The notes under the pieces were generated by a model that saw only the letters and a program-made list of their open reading frames with translations, did not search any database and was not told where the DNA came from. From Actinomycetes bacterium (lineage in GTDB: Bacteria; Actinomycetota; Acidimicrobiia; Acidimicrobiales; SZUA-35), in contig JAJRQY010000097.1 in assembly GCA_024280015.1 (NCBI GenBank), positions 1 through 51,632 on the forward strand: 51,632 bases of DNA, read 5' to 3'. Each line of letters opens with the position of its first letter. The first letter of the stretch is position 1. The position numbers and the translations under genes are program-made. Of the stretch, positions 4,651 to 12,363 are shown in pieces.

Positions 4651-4832
4651 CAACCACAACAAACAACCAAACAGTCAAAGGCCAGGCCCCGGTGGTGCTA
4701 CGCCTCCTCGCGACCCCTGACCCGGAACTAGTCAGCGTGTTGACACAAGCAGGGTGGACCCCAGTGTTGCCTGATGGCGGCACCCCAACCTGGATCCGAA
4801 CTGGGGGTGGAAGCGATGCGTTGGCCCGTTGA
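4647..4832 (+). CDS. Small protein of unknown function (61 aa)
   Basis: The start codon overlaps the methyltransferase stop as ATGA, and the 3' end overlaps the next gene by 17 nt, so it would be translationally coupled on both sides. The protein begins with a Thr/Asn/Gln-rich stretch, then a short alpha/beta-like part ending in a Gly/Thr-rich tail with two Trp. No family is recognised. It could instead be a coupling leader rather than a functional protein. Confidence 0.5.
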   Translation: MTTTTNNQTVKGQAPVVLRLLATPDPELVSVLTQAGWTPVLPDGGTPTWIRTGGGSDALAR

Positions 4833-5568
4833 AGTCGCAGGTATCGACCAGTCCGATCCGAACAATGTTCGGGAGGTGGCGGGTCAGGCGGTGTGGCGTG
4901 ATGACCGCCAGAGTTTCGCCATCTTGATGCAAACCAGTCCCCTCGAAAACAACCGCGGTGACCGGTCAGCATCTAGTCAGCGTCTGGCGTGGATTGGTGA
5001 CCGCCACGGCCAGTTCCCGACCATGGCCGCGTTGGAGACTGAGCTTGCTTCCCGTGACATCCAGCTGGGTATGCGATCTGTGCGTAACCTCGGCCAGTTG
5101 GCGGCGATCGCGAAGGAAACCGTTGGTCCAGCGCGCCTGGTTGGCAACAAGCGCCATGGCAAGGCCGTGCTAGCGGTTGTTCATCCTGATGAGTCTGTGA
5201 CCCGGCTCGAACCTGGACGGAAACTCTCAGCGGATGGTTTCAACTGGGGTTACCGGGGTCACGGCACCCTAGAAACCGCGGACGCTGGCTTGCGGGCCGC
5301 GGTTGGCGACAAGACAAGTGAGGAGGAACTCTTGATCGGGGCGATGGGTCCGCACCGAAGTGATTTGGTGGGGACGTTGTTGGCGGCGTTGCCTGATGAG
5401 TTTGCTTTGCCGTTGGATGAACTGGCCGAGTGGATCCGGACGCGTCGCCCGTTCAGCGTGCAAACCTATTCCCCGGCGACTCGTCACCTGGATCGCGACA
5501 TTGCTGAACGGGGTGTTGAGCTGCCTGAGCGGGTGGTTGAGCGCTCACCATTAGGGCGGGCACGATGA
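4816..5568 (+). CDS. Conserved-looking hypothetical protein of the element operon
   Basis: 250 aa from ATG 4816, chosen over a longer frame because a purine-rich GGGGGTGGAAG stretch precedes it (4804-4814). It starts MRWPVEVAG. A central segment near residues 140-160 reads GFNWGYRGHGTLETADAGL, which resembles the GFxWGYxGxGP pattern of small DUF6166-like proteins. That likeness is by eye and weak. No signal peptide or membrane segment is seen. It ends in ATGA with the next small ORF. Function unknown; its place between two methylase-type genes suggests a role with them. Confidence 0.7.
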   Translation: MRWPVEVAGIDQSDPNNVREVAGQAVWRDDRQSFAILMQTSPLENNRGDRSASSQRLAWIGDRHGQFPTMAALETELASRDIQLGMRSVRNLGQLAAIAKETVGPARLVGNKRHGKAVLAVVHPDESVTRLEPGRKLSADGFNWGYRGHGTLETADAGLRAAVGDKTSEEELLIGAMGPHRSDLVGTLLAALPDEFALPLDELAEWIRTRRPFSVQTYSPATRHLDRDIAERGVELPERVVERSPLGRAR

Positions 5569-5684
5569 GTTCGCTTCCGACACGAGTTCGCGGCTTATTG
5601 GGCCCTGGCTGGGGTTGGCTGTCACAGGGCGTGACTAGCCTTGCCCATGCAGCCTCGCATCTTCGGTGTGGTGGTGGCGCATGA
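5565..5684 (+). CDS. Tiny ORF (39 aa) linking two genes by ATGA overlaps
   Basis: Reading from ATG 5565 gives 39 codons ending at TGA 5682-5684. Its start overlaps the upstream stop as ATGA, and its stop overlaps the next start (5681) as ATGA. The product is Trp/Gly/Leu-rich (GPGWGWLSQGV) and ends in a Cys-Gly cluster. No family is recognised. The double overlap is the main evidence. It may be a real small protein or a translational coupler for the large gene. Confidence 0.45.
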   Translation: MSSLPTRVRGLLGPGWGWLSQGVTSLAHAASHLRCGGGA

Positions 5685-8600
5685 GCGAACAGCTCTCACT
5701 CTTCCCCCAAACACAAGACAACAACGCGAAGCTTGGAGAAGACAATGACAACACAAGAATGGGTCGCCCCGGATCAGTGGATCACCCCGACCCTGCCGAT
5801 AGGGCCACGCCCAGCATGGGTAAAGAGCCTGGGCCGGTACGGCCGCGCAGCCTACGAATGGAACCGCCGCTACCCAGCGATTCAACTCCCGGAAAAGTAC
5901 TACCTGGATCTTCAGGTGTGGGTGGAGACCGAAGTTCAGGGCCTGATGGCGGACTGGGAGAGTCTGGATCCCGAATCCGAGGAGTGGTGGGAGAAGTTCG
6001 GGGAGCCCCAGGAGTTGGTGACGGATCATCCGCTGGAGTTGCGGATCCTATTGGAACCAGGGGTGTGTCGACGTCTGGTGTTCCAACCAACCACGGAGGG
6101 GTTGAGGGATCCGTTGGGGGGCCGGTGGGTGAGCGAAGCGGACCGGGGTCTGGTGCTCAACACCGGCCCGCAGGACGAGGATCACGAGATCCAGACGCTG
6201 ATCTGGAAGGCCGACCAGCACGTCAATTACCTGTTGCAGATGTGGGAGGACTACGAGAGCTTGGAGTCGGGTCTGGAGTGGTTCATGCCAACAGCCGGGG
6301 AGGTCGTACTGGACGCCATCAACAACGATCCCCGGATGCTCAAGCAGGGCCTGAAGATCCAGCAGTACCCGGACTAGCGCCCTACACCCCGCCCTCGACC
6401 CCTGCCGCACGAGCAGCAGCGAACATTGAGGTCCTGCGGGTCTTGTCGCAGACAGCTACGGGTTCAAAAGCTGAGCGTGAAGTATTGGGTCAGTGGTCGG
6501 GTTGGGGTGCACTCCCTCAAGTGTTTGAGGATGAACCGTCCGAGCCGTGGGCACGGCGCACCCGCCAGGAAATGGACCGTCTCATGACGCCAGTAGAGAT
6601 CGACGCGGCGATGCGGTCCACCCTGAACGCCCACTACACCACCCCAGCGATCGCTTCTGGCATGTGGCGACTGGCGGACTCGCTTGGCTTTGAGGGTGGC
6701 CGGGTGTTGGAACCGGGGTGCGGGCCCGGAGTGTTCATGGCGCGGGCACCGGCGCATGCCCGAATGCTCGGTGTCGAACGCGACCCGATCACTGCTGAGG
6801 TCGCCCGCCGTCTCCACCCCCAAGCCGAGATCGTGCAGACAGCACTGGAGGACTACCGCCATGTGGGCGAACCGTTCGCTTTGGTGATTGGCAACGTCCC
6901 GTTCGCGTCGACCAAACCCTTCGACACCCAGTTCAACAAGTCGAACCGGTTGGCGTTGCATAACTATGCGATCACCAAATCCCTGGCCCTGTCCGCGCCC
7001 GGGGCGTTAACGATCGCGATCACCTCTTCGTTCACCTTGGATGCCCGCAACCAATCCCAGAGGGCGTTGATTGGTGAGTGGGGCACCTTTGTCGGTGCTA
7101 TCCGTTTGCCGGATCGGGCGTTCCACGCTCAGTCCGGTACTCAGGTCACTACCGACATCGTTGTGTTCCGTCGCCGAAGCGAACGACTCTTCGACCCCAG
7201 GATCCAGGGGGCAGAGATTGATCGGGGTGAGGTCCCAGACTGGATGAGTGTCAGCGGCATTAGGGAACTTGGTGACCGGATCGGGATGAACCAATGGTTT
7301 CACGACAACCCCGAACTCGTGCTAGGCGAGTTGGCCGATGGCGGCATGTACCGCAAAGACCAACTCCGTGTGCAACTGGATCCAGACGCGGATTTGGGCG
7401 CAATGCTCTCCCACGCTTTTGGTCGGATAGCAGTATTGGATGCACCCAACCGGGACCGCCACCGAGGTGTGTTGCCCGATCCGGTCATTGACCTGACCCA
7501 ACCGGTCTTGCCGGTCACGATCACCCCGCCACCAACAACACAGCGCCGCCTGATCGCAGAGGATTTGCCTGGGTGGGCCAAGCAAGGCTCAATCTTTGTT
7601 GACCCGTTGACGCCCCGAGGTTTCGCCCAACTCGTTGGCGACGCAGTTGTGCCCTATGTGCCGTCCTCCAAGAAGGACGAACCAACCCTGCGGGCTGTCT
7701 TGGCGCTGCGTACCACCATGATGGATCTCATCACCGCCGAACTGGCCGATGAACCGGCCGGTGACATCGAACGCCTCCGGACGCGCCTCGGCGCCGACTA
7801 CGACACTGCGGTACGGCGTATAGGTGGACCACTCAATAGGTACAAGCTGTCATCCAATGAGGTGCGCCTGTTCCCACGCCTGGCCGGGTTCCGGCGTGAT
7901 GACCCTGATTACTCAGCGCTACTGGCCCTGGAGTCCTTTGACTCTGAGACCCAGACCGCGACCCGCAGCGCCATCTTCACTACCCGACAAATCAGGCCCC
8001 AACGCCGACCAATGACTGCTTCGACGCTTCCCGAGGCGGTAGCGATGTCCATGGGTGAATCGGGGTTGCTGGACACGAAACGAATCAACGAACTCCTGGC
8101 AGACGCCACAATTGATGTGGAGGCAGGGCTCGCTGACATAGCGTTCCGTGACCCCACCGAGCCGCAACGTTGGTTGTTCGCACCCCATTACTTGTCGGGG
8201 AATGTGCGCAGCAAGCTCGATGTCGCCCGCGAAGCGGCCCTCACCAATCCGTTACTGGCCCAAAACGTTGAGGCCCTCCAAGCAGCACTACCCAAACCCT
8301 TGGTTGCTGAGGAGATCTCGGTACGCCTAGGCGTCTCCTGGCTCACCCCAAAAGACATCACCCAGTTCATTACCGACACCATTGGCCCTACCAGTGGTTT
8401 GGAAGTGTTCTGGCATGAGCAGTCCGGATGGTCCTTAGAGGCACCGTCCTGGCAAAGAAGTTCGGTGGCCATGACCCAAACGTGGGGCACGTCGCGCCGT
8501 GACGCCCTCACAATTGTTGCGGCCGGGTTGACTGGCAAAGCAATCGTGGTCAAAGACAACGACCCCGAGGGGAAACCAATCCTCAACAAGGACGAAACCC

Positions 8601-11284
8601 TCGCCGCCAATCAGAAACTGGTGGAACTCAACGAAGCTCTGGCGGACTGGTGTTGGCACAAAAACCCCGAACGCTCCGACCGGCTGGCTGCCCGTTACAA
8701 CAAGGCGTTCCGTTCCTATGTCCCACCCCAACACGATGGAGAGTGGCTCAACCCGGTCGGCCTGGTGGAAGGCTTTGAGCTGCGGCCCCATCAACGCCAA
8801 GCAATCGCCAGAGTGATCGTAGATGGCGGGGCACTGTTGGCTCACGCTGTTGGTGCAGGCAAAACCGCGGAAATGGTGGCTGCGGGTATGGAGATGCGAC
8901 GTATGGGTCTCATCAACAAGCCGCTCTATGTCGTACCGAATCATGTGGTGGAACAATTCGGTGCGGAAATGCGGCAACTCTTCCCGACTGCCTCCGTCCT
9001 GGTTCCGGATCAGAGCCAGAAGACACCGAAGCGTCGAGCTGAGCTAGTTGGGCGTATAGCGGCCGGGGACTGGGACGCAGTCATTGTCTCCCATAGGACG
9101 TTCAAGTCCATTCCCGTTAGCACCCAAGCAGAGTTGGATTACCTGGATGACATTGTGGCTCGCACCCGTGACGCTCAGTCCGCTGCCAGTAACGGTGGCG
9201 GGGGCACCAAGACCATCAAGAAGATCGCCGCTGCATTGGAGAAAGCGGAAGCCAAAACAAAGAAGCTGCGGGACAATCCACGTGATGATTCACTGACGTT
9301 CGAACAACTCGGCGTCGACTACCTCTTCGTGGATGAGGCGCATGAGTTCAAGAACTTGGCTGTGCCGTGCGCGAATCCTGACCTCGGGTTCGGCGGCGAT
9401 TCTGGGTCCAAGAAAGCCACTGACCTGGATTTGAAGATCAAACTCTTGCGTCGCATGCACCCCACCCAACGCGGTGTCGTCACCTTCGCTACCGGTACCC
9501 CAATTCCGAACAGGGTGGCGGAGTTGTATGTGATGCAACACTACTTGCAGCCGGATGCCCTGGAGGCTGCCGGTGTCGGCTCCTTCGATGCGTGGGCCGC
9601 CCAGTTCGGCACGGCTGTCACCCAATATGAGGTGGGTGTTGGCAATCAGTGGAAGCTGCGAACCCGTTTCGCTCGCTACCAGAACCTGCCGGAGCTTCAA
9701 CTCCTACTGGGAACCGTTGCCGACATCCAGATGGCTGAGGATCTCAACTTGCCGCGCCCTGCCCTTGTGACCGGTAAGGCGCAGATGGTGATGGTTCCCT
9801 CCTCACATGCTCTGGATCTGTTCTCCGAGCAGCTGGCTGTGCGGGCGGCGTCAGTGTCGGGGTTCGGAGAGAAGGACAACATGTTGGCGGTCATGGGTGA
9901 GGGCCGCAGAGCTGCTTTGGATCTACGTCTTGTTGGCCGTTCTCAGCCTGACCCATCCAAGATCGGCACTGCGGTACAGCGGATTGCGGAGATCTGGGAG
10001 AAACATCGTGATCGGGCCTATGACGATGTGTTGACTGGTGAACCTCATCCTCGGACTGGAGGTTTGCAGATCGTGTTCTGTGACCATGGTGTGGAAGGCA
10101 CCAATAGCGGTACCGGTGTGAATCTGTATCAGATACTGCGCGACCAGCTTGCCGAAGCAGGACTACCGGCACAGCAGGTGGAGTTCATGCAGAACCACAA
10201 AACTCCAGTAGCGAAGGCCGAACTGTTCGCTCGTTGTCGAGATGGCCGGGTATCGGTCCTTGTTGGTTCCACTGGGACAATGGGAACGGGAATGAATGTG
10301 CAAGCCCGAGCGGTGGCTTTGCATCACCTGGATGCCACCTGGCGGCCAGCCGATATCGAACAGAGAGAAGGGCGTGCGTGGCGCCAAGGGAACCAGAACC
10401 CCGACATTGAGATCCTGCGCTACGCCACGGAGAAGAGTTTTGATGTGGTGATGTGGCAAACCTTGGAACGTAAGGCCGGGTTTATCGCGCAAGTCATGCG
10501 ACCTCGTCCGGGAGGTGTCCGCGAGATTGAGGAAGTCTTCAACGAGAACGAGCTGTCCTTCGCTGAGATGAAGTCACTGGCCACTGGTGATCCGAAGATG
10601 ATTGACAAGATGCGCCTGGATCGCCGCCACACTGATTTGGCCCGCCTTGAATCAACTTGGGCCAAACAGAAAGTGCGCCTCGAATCGAGTATTCCCCGCT
10701 GGCGAAACCGGCGTGTCGCCCTGGCGACCCGGGTGGATGGCTTGTTGGATGTGGCGGGGCGTCTGGGTGAGCAAATGGATCTCACAATCACTGGACGTCG
10801 TTTCGACACGTTGAAAGAAGCCGATGTGGAGATCCGTCGGCTGGCTCGAAAGATGAGGTCCTCGGACGGCCCGGCGGTACTCGGTTCTCTTGGTGGGTTG
10901 CCTGTTGAGGTGAGACGCCATATCGATGCCGTTGATTTCACTGTTGGTGCGCACACCGCGAAGCTTGTGACCACCTTGTCAATCGAGGACCTGGTGAACG
11001 ACGCGCAGATCGGTTCCAGGTTGCTGCGCTTAGCAAGGTCTGCACCGTCGCGGGCCGCTGATGCAGAAGTCGAGATCACCCGGTTGGGTAAGGAAATTAG
11101 GGCCGGTGTGACCCAGGTGGAGAAGCCGTTCACCAAGGCGGCTGAGTTGGCGGAGGTTGGCCTGGAGTTGGCGACTCTGATTGCTGAGATCGAAGCCGAA
11201 CAAACCGCACCCCAACTGCCAACGACCGACGCGGTCGTGATCAAAGGTTCAGTGAAGCAGGAACGAGCGGGGAGAAGCCTGTGA
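5681..11284 (+). CDS. DarB-like N6-adenine DNA methylase fused to SF2/SNF2-type helicase
   Basis: About 1867 aa. Residues 1-230 are Gly/Ser/Pro/Arg-rich and overlap a nested gene. Residues ~235-330 carry the conserved lead-in (GWGALPQVF). Methylase motif I is LEPGCGPG (343-350) and the NPPF-type motif is NVPF (405-408), the variant I recall from this family. Helicase motifs follow: GAGKT (1058-1062), DEAH (1218-1221), ATGTPIPN, and QREGRAWRQG near 1561. A charged C-terminal tail ends the protein. Related plasmid and phage proteins (P1 DarB type) protect incoming DNA from restriction. ATG 5681 follows an ATGA overlap and gives MSEQLSLFPQ; GTG near 6272 is an alternative start if the N-terminus is not translated. 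Confidence 0.85.
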   Translation: MSEQLSLFPQTQDNNAKLGEDNDNTRMGRPGSVDHPDPADRATPSMGKEPGPVRPRSLRMEPPLPSDSTPGKVLPGSSGVGGDRSSGPDGGLGESGSRIRGVVGEVRGAPGVGDGSSAGVADPIGTRGVSTSGVPTNHGGVEGSVGGPVGERSGPGSGAQHRPAGRGSRDPDADLEGRPARQLPVADVGGLRELGVGSGVVHANSRGGRTGRHQQRSPDAQAGPEDPAVPGLAPYTPPSTPAARAAANIEVLRVLSQTATGSKAEREVLGQWSGWGALPQVFEDEPSEPWARRTRQEMDRLMTPVEIDAAMRSTLNAHYTTPAIASGMWRLADSLGFEGGRVLEPGCGPGVFMARAPAHARMLGVERDPITAEVARRLHPQAEIVQTALEDYRHVGEPFALVIGNVPFASTKPFDTQFNKSNRLALHNYAITKSLALSAPGALTIAITSSFTLDARNQSQRALIGEWGTFVGAIRLPDRAFHAQSGTQVTTDIVVFRRRSERLFDPRIQGAEIDRGEVPDWMSVSGIRELGDRIGMNQWFHDNPELVLGELADGGMYRKDQLRVQLDPDADLGAMLSHAFGRIAVLDAPNRDRHRGVLPDPVIDLTQPVLPVTITPPPTTQRRLIAEDLPGWAKQGSIFVDPLTPRGFAQLVGDAVVPYVPSSKKDEPTLRAVLALRTTMMDLITAELADEPAGDIERLRTRLGADYDTAVRRIGGPLNRYKLSSNEVRLFPRLAGFRRDDPDYSALLALESFDSETQTATRSAIFTTRQIRPQRRPMTASTLPEAVAMSMGESGLLDTKRINELLADATIDVEAGLADIAFRDPTEPQRWLFAPHYLSGNVRSKLDVAREAALTNPLLAQNVEALQAALPKPLVAEEISVRLGVSWLTPKDITQFITDTIGPTSGLEVFWHEQSGWSLEAPSWQRSSVAMTQTWGTSRRDALTIVAAGLTGKAIVVKDNDPEGKPILNKDETLAANQKLVELNEALADWCWHKNPERSDRLAARYNKAFRSYVPPQHDGEWLNPVGLVEGFELRPHQRQAIARVIVDGGALLAHAVGAGKTAEMVAAGMEMRRMGLINKPLYVVPNHVVEQFGAEMRQLFPTASVLVPDQSQKTPKRRAELVGRIAAGDWDAVIVSHRTFKSIPVSTQAELDYLDDIVARTRDAQSAASNGGGGTKTIKKIAAALEKAEAKTKKLRDNPRDDSLTFEQLGVDYLFVDEAHEFKNLAVPCANPDLGFGGDSGSKKATDLDLKIKLLRRMHPTQRGVVTFATGTPIPNRVAELYVMQHYLQPDALEAAGVGSFDAWAAQFGTAVTQYEVGVGNQWKLRTRFARYQNLPELQLLLGTVADIQMAEDLNLPRPALVTGKAQMVMVPSSHALDLFSEQLAVRAASVSGFGEKDNMLAVMGEGRRAALDLRLVGRSQPDPSKIGTAVQRIAEIWEKHRDRAYDDVLTGEPHPRTGGLQIVFCDHGVEGTNSGTGVNLYQILRDQLAEAGLPAQQVEFMQNHKTPVAKAELFARCRDGRVSVLVGSTGTMGTGMNVQARAVALHHLDATWRPADIEQREGRAWRQGNQNPDIEILRYATEKSFDVVMWQTLERKAGFIAQVMRPRPGGVREIEEVFNENELSFAEMKSLATGDPKMIDKMRLDRRHTDLARLESTWAKQKVRLESSIPRWRNRRVALATRVDGLLDVAGRLGEQMDLTITGRRFDTLKEADVEIRRLARKMRSSDGPAVLGSLGGLPVEVRRHIDAVDFTVGAHTAKLVTTLSIEDLVNDAQIGSRLLRLARSAPSRAADAEVEITRLGKEIRAGVTQVEKPFTKAAELAEVGLELATLIAEIEAEQTAPQLPTTDAVVIKGSVKQERAGRSL
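5745..6377 (+). CDS. Nested Trp-rich 210-aa protein in the +1 frame of the methylase-helicase gene
   Basis: This gene lies wholly inside the 5' part of the large gene in another frame. ATG 5745 has GGAG at 5735-5738 with a 6-nt spacer. The codons strongly favour G or C in the third position, and the product looks folded: 12 Trp, alternating hydrophobic and acidic helices (EEWWEKF, LLQMWEDYESLE) and no low-complexity stretch. The other frame over the same bases gives only a Gly/Ser/Arg/Pro-rich sequence. Its stop (TAG 6375-6377) falls just where the conserved part of the methylase-helicase begins. No family is recognised. A cytoplasmic partner of the methylase is possible, but that is inference. 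Confidence 0.7.
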   Translation: MTTQEWVAPDQWITPTLPIGPRPAWVKSLGRYGRAAYEWNRRYPAIQLPEKYYLDLQVWVETEVQGLMADWESLDPESEEWWEKFGEPQELVTDHPLELRILLEPGVCRRLVFQPTTEGLRDPLGGRWVSEADRGLVLNTGPQDEDHEIQTLIWKADQHVNYLLQMWEDYESLESGLEWFMPTAGEVVLDAINNDPRMLKQGLKIQQYPD

Positions 11285-12363
11285 ACGTTCTGAAGATACG
11301 CCACGGATTGGTCGACGTGTTGGTGTTTGGTCTGGCCTATGAAGTGCTCGCACCCGCCACATGGATCACCCATCTCCAAGAATTCAAGGACTTGTCCACC
11401 AGTACCGCAACGAGCGTGGCCGGTAGCATTCACATCGATGGATGGCTACTGGTGTTCGTCGGTGTGCTTGGTCTCATGTTGGCCATGACGTTGTTGTCCA
11501 AGTGGTATCTGCGATTGGGAGCCAGGGGAATTGAAGCTGATCCAACCGATGCTGGTTGCATGACTCAGGGTCTGACCGGGTCCAGCGAGGTTGCTACTTG
11601 GCGGTTTCAGATTGCTATTCGAGCGCTCGCTGATCCAGATCCGGTGATCCGGGTCGGAGCGATCTTTGACCTCGAAGCAGTAGCGGTGATTGCCGAAAGC
11701 GAGTTCGCCGGATTGGTGTATGAGAACCTGGTCGCAACGTTGCTCGCTAACGCCAGACCTGATCCAGAAATGGACGTTGAGATCTTCCCTACAGAGTCAT
11801 TGGAGACTCATTGGACTCCCAACGGGATGCGGATACATGTGAGGCCGCTACCACCAACCGATGTTGTGACCGTTCTACGGGTCTTGGCCAGGCGCAGGGC
11901 CCTGTTTGACAGAAACGTCGAGTATCTCGCGACAGACAACGAACGCCTCGAAGGCGGCCCACCGGCCACTGGTGTGCATCTGGCGCACATTGATTTGAGT
12001 CAAGCGTGGTTGGCTAACACGAACTTTCAGAACGCGACGTTGACGAAAGTCAATTTGAAGGAGGCCACGTTGACTGGGATAGATCTGGACGGAGCGAACA
12101 TTCATTCTTGTTCGCTTGCTATGGCCAAGCTTGATAGGGCTAGCTTCTGGCGAGCAAGCATTGCCTGGTGCTCATTCATGTTTGCTGACTTGTCGTGGAC
12201 TCGGTTCTACCGGGCCGCGATCAAGGGCACCAATTTCTACGATGCAATTGTTGAGGGTGAAGCATTTGAGAATGCGTATTTTGATGAGGGTGTGGACCTG
12301 ACCACGATGAGGGTTCGGGGATCGAGGCCTGATGGGGATCCCACCGACTCCTTCACTGCCTGA
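11281..12363 (+). CDS. Membrane-anchored pentapeptide-repeat protein
   Basis: 360 aa, starting at GTG in a GTGA overlap with the methylase-helicase stop. Two hydrophobic segments (about residues 9-25 and 53-75) anchor it. A charged middle domain follows. From about residue 240 there is a run of pentapeptide repeats of the A(N/D)LXX type (IDLSQAWLANTNFQNATL and onward) for ~90 residues. Pentapeptide repeats form a right-handed quadrilateral helix; some mimic DNA, many act as scaffolds. It closes the element operon, so a structural or DNA-mimic role with the upstream ATPases is plausible but unproven. Confidence 0.8.
   Translation: MNVLKIRHGLVDVLVFGLAYEVLAPATWITHLQEFKDLSTSTATSVAGSIHIDGWLLVFVGVLGLMLAMTLLSKWYLRLGARGIEADPTDAGCMTQGLTGSSEVATWRFQIAIRALADPDPVIRVGAIFDLEAVAVIAESEFAGLVYENLVATLLANARPDPEMDVEIFPTESLETHWTPNGMRIHVRPLPPTDVVTVLRVLARRRALFDRNVEYLATDNERLEGGPPATGVHLAHIDLSQAWLANTNFQNATLTKVNLKEATLTGIDLDGANIHSCSLAMAKLDRASFWRASIAWCSFMFADLSWTRFYRAAIKGTNFYDAIVEGEAFENAYFDEGVDLTTMRVRGSRPDGDPTDSFTA

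Follow-up and report, generated by a model that had tools for sequence, protein, structure and literature searches.

Does a bacterial cell make one protein or two from the first part of a gene for a DarB-like methylase–helicase? In the window considered here (the whole analysed stretch of DNA, 51,632 nt), a second open reading frame (ORF) is fully nested in the 5′ part of the large one, shifted by +1, and runs from its ATG to a TAG at 6375–6377, giving an overlap of 633 nt (Table 1). The initial annotation had left two outcomes open: either both frames are translated, or the large protein starts near 6272 and its apparent N-terminus is not made. We consider it very likely that the nested ORF and the large one beginning at ATG 5681 each represent a genuine gene and that the overlap is a dual-coding region, with the reservation that translation is inferred from sequence alone. 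Relatives from several phyla share this arrangement with neither frame interrupted, so that production of both proteins is very probable.

Table 1. Positions in the window of the two overlapping reading frames and of the features within them.
Feature	Position	Strand	Basis or comment
Large ORF, DarB-like methylase–SNF2-type helicase with N-terminal extension	5681–11284	+	1867 aa from ATG 5681
QLSLF, beta-clamp-binding-like motif, large frame	5690–5704	+	Sequence; resembles the clamp-binding consensus, binding inferred
GGAG, Shine–Dalgarno core of nested gene	5735–5738	+	Sequence; L029 has the same bases
Nested ORF, 210 aa, +1 frame relative to large ORF	5745–6377	+	Probable remote relative of the TnpV-like nested family
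Dual-coding region (inferred): nested gene and Gly/Pro/Ser/Arg-rich linker of large protein	5745–6376	+	Family-level codon-permutation and four-fold-site tests; composition
Conserved N-terminal part of methylase–helicase, homology anchor	6377–7600	+	Alignment of relatives
SNF2-related domain, large protein	8825–9355	+	Pfam, residues 1049–1225
Helicase C-terminal domain, large protein	10175–10390	+	Pfam, residues 1499–1570

The nested frame was found where the initial annotation had placed it, with the same coordinates, frame, stop and GGAG site. Its GC content by codon position is 0.65/0.40/0.80, in agreement with the GC-rich third positions that had been described, and the product is indeed Trp-rich (12 of 210 residues). 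The large protein begins MSEQLSLF, and its 232-residue N-terminal extension, described as rich in Gly, Ser, Pro and Arg, contains 20% G, 12% P, 10% S and 10% R and is continuous with the methylase–helicase, the frame being open until 11284. Homology to other methylase–helicases begins at the nested stop, as had also been noted. The span of 5681–6377 given for the finding needs amending at its 5′ end, since the large protein has its ATG at 5681, outside the nested gene. The third frame has nine stops across the nested gene. For the window alone, synonymous permutation within the nested gene left the large frame open in 2.2% of 1000 runs, and sampling with helicase codon usage did so in 0.1% of 1000 draws. 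By eye, no strong Shine–Dalgarno core was seen upstream of ATG 5681 in the window; between 5300 and 6500, a promoter scan gave no promoter-like site and a terminator scan gave one terminator-like site, with 0.9 expected. A DUF6166-containing protein is encoded just 5′ of the large gene (4774–5568), a TraG-like coupling protein was identified upstream of the methylase–helicase with Pfam, and the coding region of a pentapeptide-repeat protein (11281–12363) overlaps the last 4 nt of the large ORF.

The window's nested protein was useless as a query: a tblastn search of plasmids and a search of viral contigs gave no match, and the class genomes gave weak matches only. The route that worked was the methylase–helicase anchor, which matched in 7 of 292 class genomes (the window's own included), 1940 plasmid records, 23 viral contigs and 343 genome stretches, 80 of which were analysed. 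Left out of the resulting set of 122 loci were weak matches (L003–L007), fragments (L017, L018) and the window itself (L001, L002, L008). Most of the first loci, read by eye, shared one layout, in which the large frame was open upstream and bore a QLSLF-like motif and a +1 ORF occupied the same place. An iterated HMM recovered the nested family in 104 of the 122 loci (E < 0.01), and the best match lay in the +1 phase in 102 of these; counted as ORF matches at E < 1e-3, 100 of 103 were in +1. The two exceptions, L019 and L096 (phase +2), are apparently out of phase through single indels. In L019, a plasmid of Iamia sp. SCSIO 61187, the indel seems to align the nested frame with the helicase, and a sequencing error cannot be distinguished from a real fusion. 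The HMM missed the nested genes of the window and of L029; by eye only, a +1 ORF was in place in six HMM-negative loci (L014, L031, L042, L044, L078, L083), and none was recognised in three others (L028, L119, L125). Sampling that started from the nested profile yielded nine places in 8 of 396 genomes. All seven places that adjoined a helicase, L011 again among them, had the +1 phase and an uninterrupted large frame; the other two were a second upstream copy and a place without a helicase in the fetched stretch. At one locus (L155/L149, G462:C7), two tandem TnpV-like ORFs precede the methylase–helicase, and the +1 overlap with it involves the second alone. When 106 loci were grouped into 50 clusters, a Shine–Dalgarno core was present before the chosen nested start in 44 of the 50 representatives, compared with 61 of 525 internal helicase ATGs; the former count is biased because the best of several candidate starts was chosen.

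The +1 nesting was also found in Listeria (L135), Campylobacter jejuni (L136), Selenomonas (L137), Pseudomonas (L133) and six viral contigs (L128, L141, L142, L143, L145 and L146). For L141, L142 and L145, the nested ORF was taken from the point of homology, with no start codon assigned. The Listeria query found 97 plasmid records, 95 of them from Listeria, and the Campylobacter query found 212 (206 Campylobacter and 6 Helicobacter), while no relatives were found among the viral contigs with the Selenomonas or the Campylobacter protein as query. No nested gene was recognised in the alphaproteobacterial plasmids L132, L134 and L138, and no nested ORF in L144.

Part of the nested family matches TnpV (PF14198). 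This Pfam model was matched by 9 of the 34 nested members in the actinobacterial set at E ≤ 0.01 (best 1.2e-5), and several plasmid records label the nested gene TnpV. Outside that set, four of ten nested proteins (L135, L137, L141, L128) reached or exceeded the Pfam TnpV cut-off, L142 matched with an E of 0.064 only, and for the remaining five (L133, L136, L143, L145, L146) Pfam gave no match to TnpV, their resemblance to the family being by eye. The window's own protein had no TnpV match at E ≤ 1 and nothing above cut-off in Pfam or NCBIfam. The L009 group aligns to the nested family with an E of 3e-6, and a profile of the window and L029 pair aligned to the family over 76 collinear columns (hhalign E 0.0016, probability only 16%); the alignment of this pair to the L009 group was poor (Prob 1%). 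We regard the window protein as no more than a probable remote member of the TnpV-like nested family, the alignment being suggestive rather than proof; its position and phase are those of the other nested genes. A model of a family representative (L057) is helical, with pLDDT block means of 93–98 over residues 1–80. The AlphaFold2 model of the window protein has a mean pLDDT of 70.7, with residues 21–70 at about 88–95, and contains helices at 31–40, 50–73 and 96–111. A Foldseek search with the L057 model gave no match at E ≤ 0.001, and the family profile matched none of the PDB sequences. The best VIA match of the L057 model (Z 6.4), to a helical stretch of PRORP, is within the level common for helical models. 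No solved structure is clearly similar to the family model.

In the large protein, SNF2-rel_dom, ResIII and Helicase_C scored above the Pfam cut-off, and Methyltransf_25 scored below it (E 0.001). The alignment of methylase–helicases contains conserved LEPGCG and NVPF motifs, which we take to count toward an adenine methylase. With this assignment, the protein has an adenine methylase followed by a SWI2/SNF2 helicase in one polypeptide, our criterion for calling it DarB-like. At residues 4–8 it carries QLSLF, near the terminus as required of a clamp motif; that this is beta-clamp-binding-like is our presumption from the clamp-binding consensus, and binding itself is inferred. In 31 of 47 cluster representatives with an open large frame, that frame carries a clamp-like motif no more than 80 residues upstream of where the nested domain starts, compared with a mean of 0.5 and a maximum of 4 loci in 500 shuffles, and 0.3 in helicase segments. 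The motif pattern was composed after examples had been viewed. Other upstream elements in the large frame were SAP repeats in L117 (Pfam, E 1.6e-22) and DnaG_N in L022 (Pfam, E 8.3e-8); seven further upstream segments scanned against Pfam gave nothing above cut-off. In the part of the polyvalent-protein literature available to us (PMC5512222), DarB of phage P1 is the archetype of polyvalent proteins with a DNA methylase–SWI2/SNF2 helicase dyad, the dyad also present in the window's large protein, and it protects injected DNA in cis. The main text of that paper contains no "TnpV", "overlapping" or "frameshift".

We propose that the large protein is the DarB-like polyvalent methylase–helicase of a conjugative element, and that, most likely, one message with two starts would yield both proteins. 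Ribosomes starting at 5681 would make the clamp-motif N-terminus, a linker that is probably disordered, as inferred, and corresponds to the nested gene read out of frame, then the methylase and the helicase. Internal starts at the Shine–Dalgarno core and ATG (5735–5747) would produce a separate, small helical protein, remotely TnpV-like. By inference, the clamp motif would carry the large protein to replicating DNA. Most likely, the small protein would work together with the large one during transfer or establishment of the element DNA, a role that is inferred; the two are inherited together and would be co-expressed.

Dual coding could also be correct with the small protein serving as an excision factor of the element and not as a partner of the large protein. 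This is the less probable role in our judgement, but one to be kept in mind: according to the accessible portion of PMC3158075, an excision role was postulated for TnpV of Tn4451 from its similarity to lambda Xis, and Tn6104–Tn6106 carry TnpV genes. However, in the loci studied here, the overlap links the small protein to the methylase–helicase rather than to a recombinase. Neither role has been tested. In the Tn4451-type elements, as far as the same portion describes them, TnpV genes are ordinary separate genes, whereas their nested relatives lie inside another coding region. We retain the partnership of the two proteins as the preferred reading.

Among the +1 loci, with the window and L029 included, the large frame had no stop between the beginning of the nested domain and the anchor in 99 of 104; this count takes L027 as open, despite a nested gene that looks frameshifted. 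Across the nested gene, the large frame was stop-free in 47 of the 49 cluster representatives in the permutation test (L096, in phase +2, was skipped), compared with 14.3 expected from synonymous codon permutation and 11.2 from helicase codon usage. These figures correspond to a P of about 9e-31 and 3e-38, respectively, if the clusters are independent, which they are not fully. The third frame was open in none of the 49. At single loci of GC-rich genomes, openness by chance is often appreciable (up to 0.86); for L029 alone, it was 0.074 by permutation and 0 of 1000 with helicase usage. A T that would create a stop in the large frame was found at 0 of 955 nested four-fold sites, compared with T at 98 of 2472 other nested four-fold sites and at 196 of 3082 in helicase bodies. 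In the broken-frame representatives, such stop-making T was present at 2 of 48 sites. Both frames are open beyond chance in the relatives, which fulfils the criterion that we set for dual coding.

The four-fold sites were also compared between relatives, in 23 disjoint pairs picked greedily from 80, of which 21 were overlapped and two had a broken large frame. In the overlapped pairs, 224 of 1358 nested four-fold sites differed, compared with 1010 of 3811 in the helicase (Mantel–Haenszel OR 0.52, p 2e-15); without the stop-risk sites, the OR was again 0.52. In the two broken-frame pairs, the ratio was reversed (43/133 compared with 86/376, OR 1.72), a small control of two pairs from one cluster. 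With the nested family conserved and its four-fold divergence reduced, we consider the requirement of selective constraint on both frames to be met, without a full two-frame dN/dS model. At the level of the family, comparison of the sequences shows that both frames are maintained in the +1 phase, with stop avoidance and reduced divergence at nested synonymous positions.

Five loci differ from this pattern. L043, L045, L062, L108 and L103 have two to three large-frame stops inside the nested gene. In the first four, which are mycobacterial, the large frame apparently starts 25 nt ahead of the nested stop, leaving an overlap of about 25 nt, and the clamp-like motif is found downstream of the nested stop. 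In L103, the first large start comes after the nested stop; its helicase frame ends 456 codons past the anchor, so that decay of this copy is possible. Early ends of the helicase frame were seen in 8 of the 50 representatives (L010, L026, L027, L032, L051, L073, L096, L103), and some copies may therefore be decaying or split. The initial annotation had named two kinds of loci, one that would refute the extended N-terminus and one that would refute the nested gene, and both do occur, as minorities: the nested frame is open and the large frame broken in 5 of 104 +1 loci, and the large frame continues without a recognisable nested gene in, for example, L028 and L144. Such loci look like losses or rearrangements rather than the rule of the family.

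We considered the possibility that the nested ORF is the sole real gene in 5745–6377, with the large protein starting downstream (at GTG 6278 or later) and the open frame being a by-product of GC-rich codons. Openness by chance at single loci and the five relatives above, which look so arranged, would fit this, as would the existing annotation. In 13 plasmid records with a nested gene that is not visibly frameshifted (L019 and L027 left out, and the gene table of that collection being incomplete), the overlapping pair was never listed; ten records list the small gene and a helicase starting after it, and three (L022, L135, L136) the large gene alone. One of the ten, L026, has a helicase frame that is itself broken. 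However, a downstream start does not account for 47 of 49 open representatives where 11 to 14 are expected, for the clamp-like motif, SAP or DnaG_N in the upstream large frame, for the constraint on nested four-fold sites, or for the open large frame in Campylobacter, and we consider it quite improbable. Of the outcomes first offered, dual coding is supported by these numbers and by the conserved upstream elements, whereas a late start near 6272 (the nearest in-frame GTG, by eye, is at 6278) with an N-terminus that is not made goes against the comparison.

The loci from other phyla and from viruses gave the same result: the large frame was stop-free across the nested gene in 10 of 10. Permutation left it open in <1% of cases for L135, L136 and L146 and in 6 to 44% for the other seven, while with helicase codon usage chance openness was 17% for L145 and did not exceed 1.1% in the other nine. 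In Campylobacter (L136), where the large frame was followed over 159 codons, 0 of 2000 permutations kept either frame open given the other. Conditional on the large protein, openness of the nested frame had a chance probability of up to 0.83 (L133).

A close relative of the window is L029, with an anchor that is 88% identical. Both of its frames are open. The flanks are nearly unchanged, the leader (5672–5748) being identical and 6433–6560 98% identical, whereas the cassette has 57% nucleotide identity with 69 gap columns; in the nested proteins, 85 of 193 aligned residues are kept. Because its borders of divergence are sharp, the cassette looks as if it had been exchanged by recombination, or had evolved very fast within.

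A programmed frameshift that fuses the nested protein to the methylase–helicase, giving one polypeptide from both frames, is very improbable. The frames are one base apart, the nested stop lies at the methylase boundary, and the indel in the Iamia plasmid seems to bring the nested frame in line with the helicase. However, a frameshift leaves the upstream openness and the conserved motifs of the large frame unexplained, the +1 loci show 62 different distances between the nested stop and the anchor, the longest being 2.3 kb, and no slippery site was seen by eye in the window, the only locus inspected for one. That only the large ORF is translated and the nested ORF is a chance open frame can practically be discounted: its absence from three plasmid records, in a gene table that is incomplete, and the chance openness of some nested frames, as in L133, are outweighed by a conserved family with a confident helical model, by TnpV scores at or above cut-off in four of the ten outside proteins, by the Shine–Dalgarno cores before nested starts and by the residues kept between the window and L029 at 57% nucleotide identity.

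In open-licence papers only, we found no published description of a TnpV-like gene nested in a methylase–helicase gene, and those in which TnpV and "overlapping" occur together had, in the passages available, no bearing on overlapping genes. Long same-strand overlaps in bacteria have hitherto been treated as annotation errors, according to the part of PMC2478687 available to us; this 2008 survey of 968 overlaps of >60 bp judged none of the co-directional ones to be real and put the longest real overlap at 56 bp. The window overlap is 633 nt and recurs across phyla. Single long bacterial overlaps have been reported since (e.g., PMC4683798 and PMC7103648, in the portions available), in which two proteins likewise come from one stretch in different frames. 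The pair described here is long, fully nested and present in several phyla, and is backed by phase, stop avoidance, constraint and loci in which the overlap was lost. We suggest, as an idea with an even chance of being right, that a TnpV-like gene within the linker of a DarB-like protein forms one ancient unit, which has spread among Actinomycetota, Bacillota, Campylobacterota, Pseudomonadota and phages with its +1 phase unchanged and is at times swapped as a whole cassette, and that it permanently ties a helper to a DNA-protection machine. Dual coding could readily be tested on the nested pair, and the small protein is a candidate partner for polyvalent proteins.
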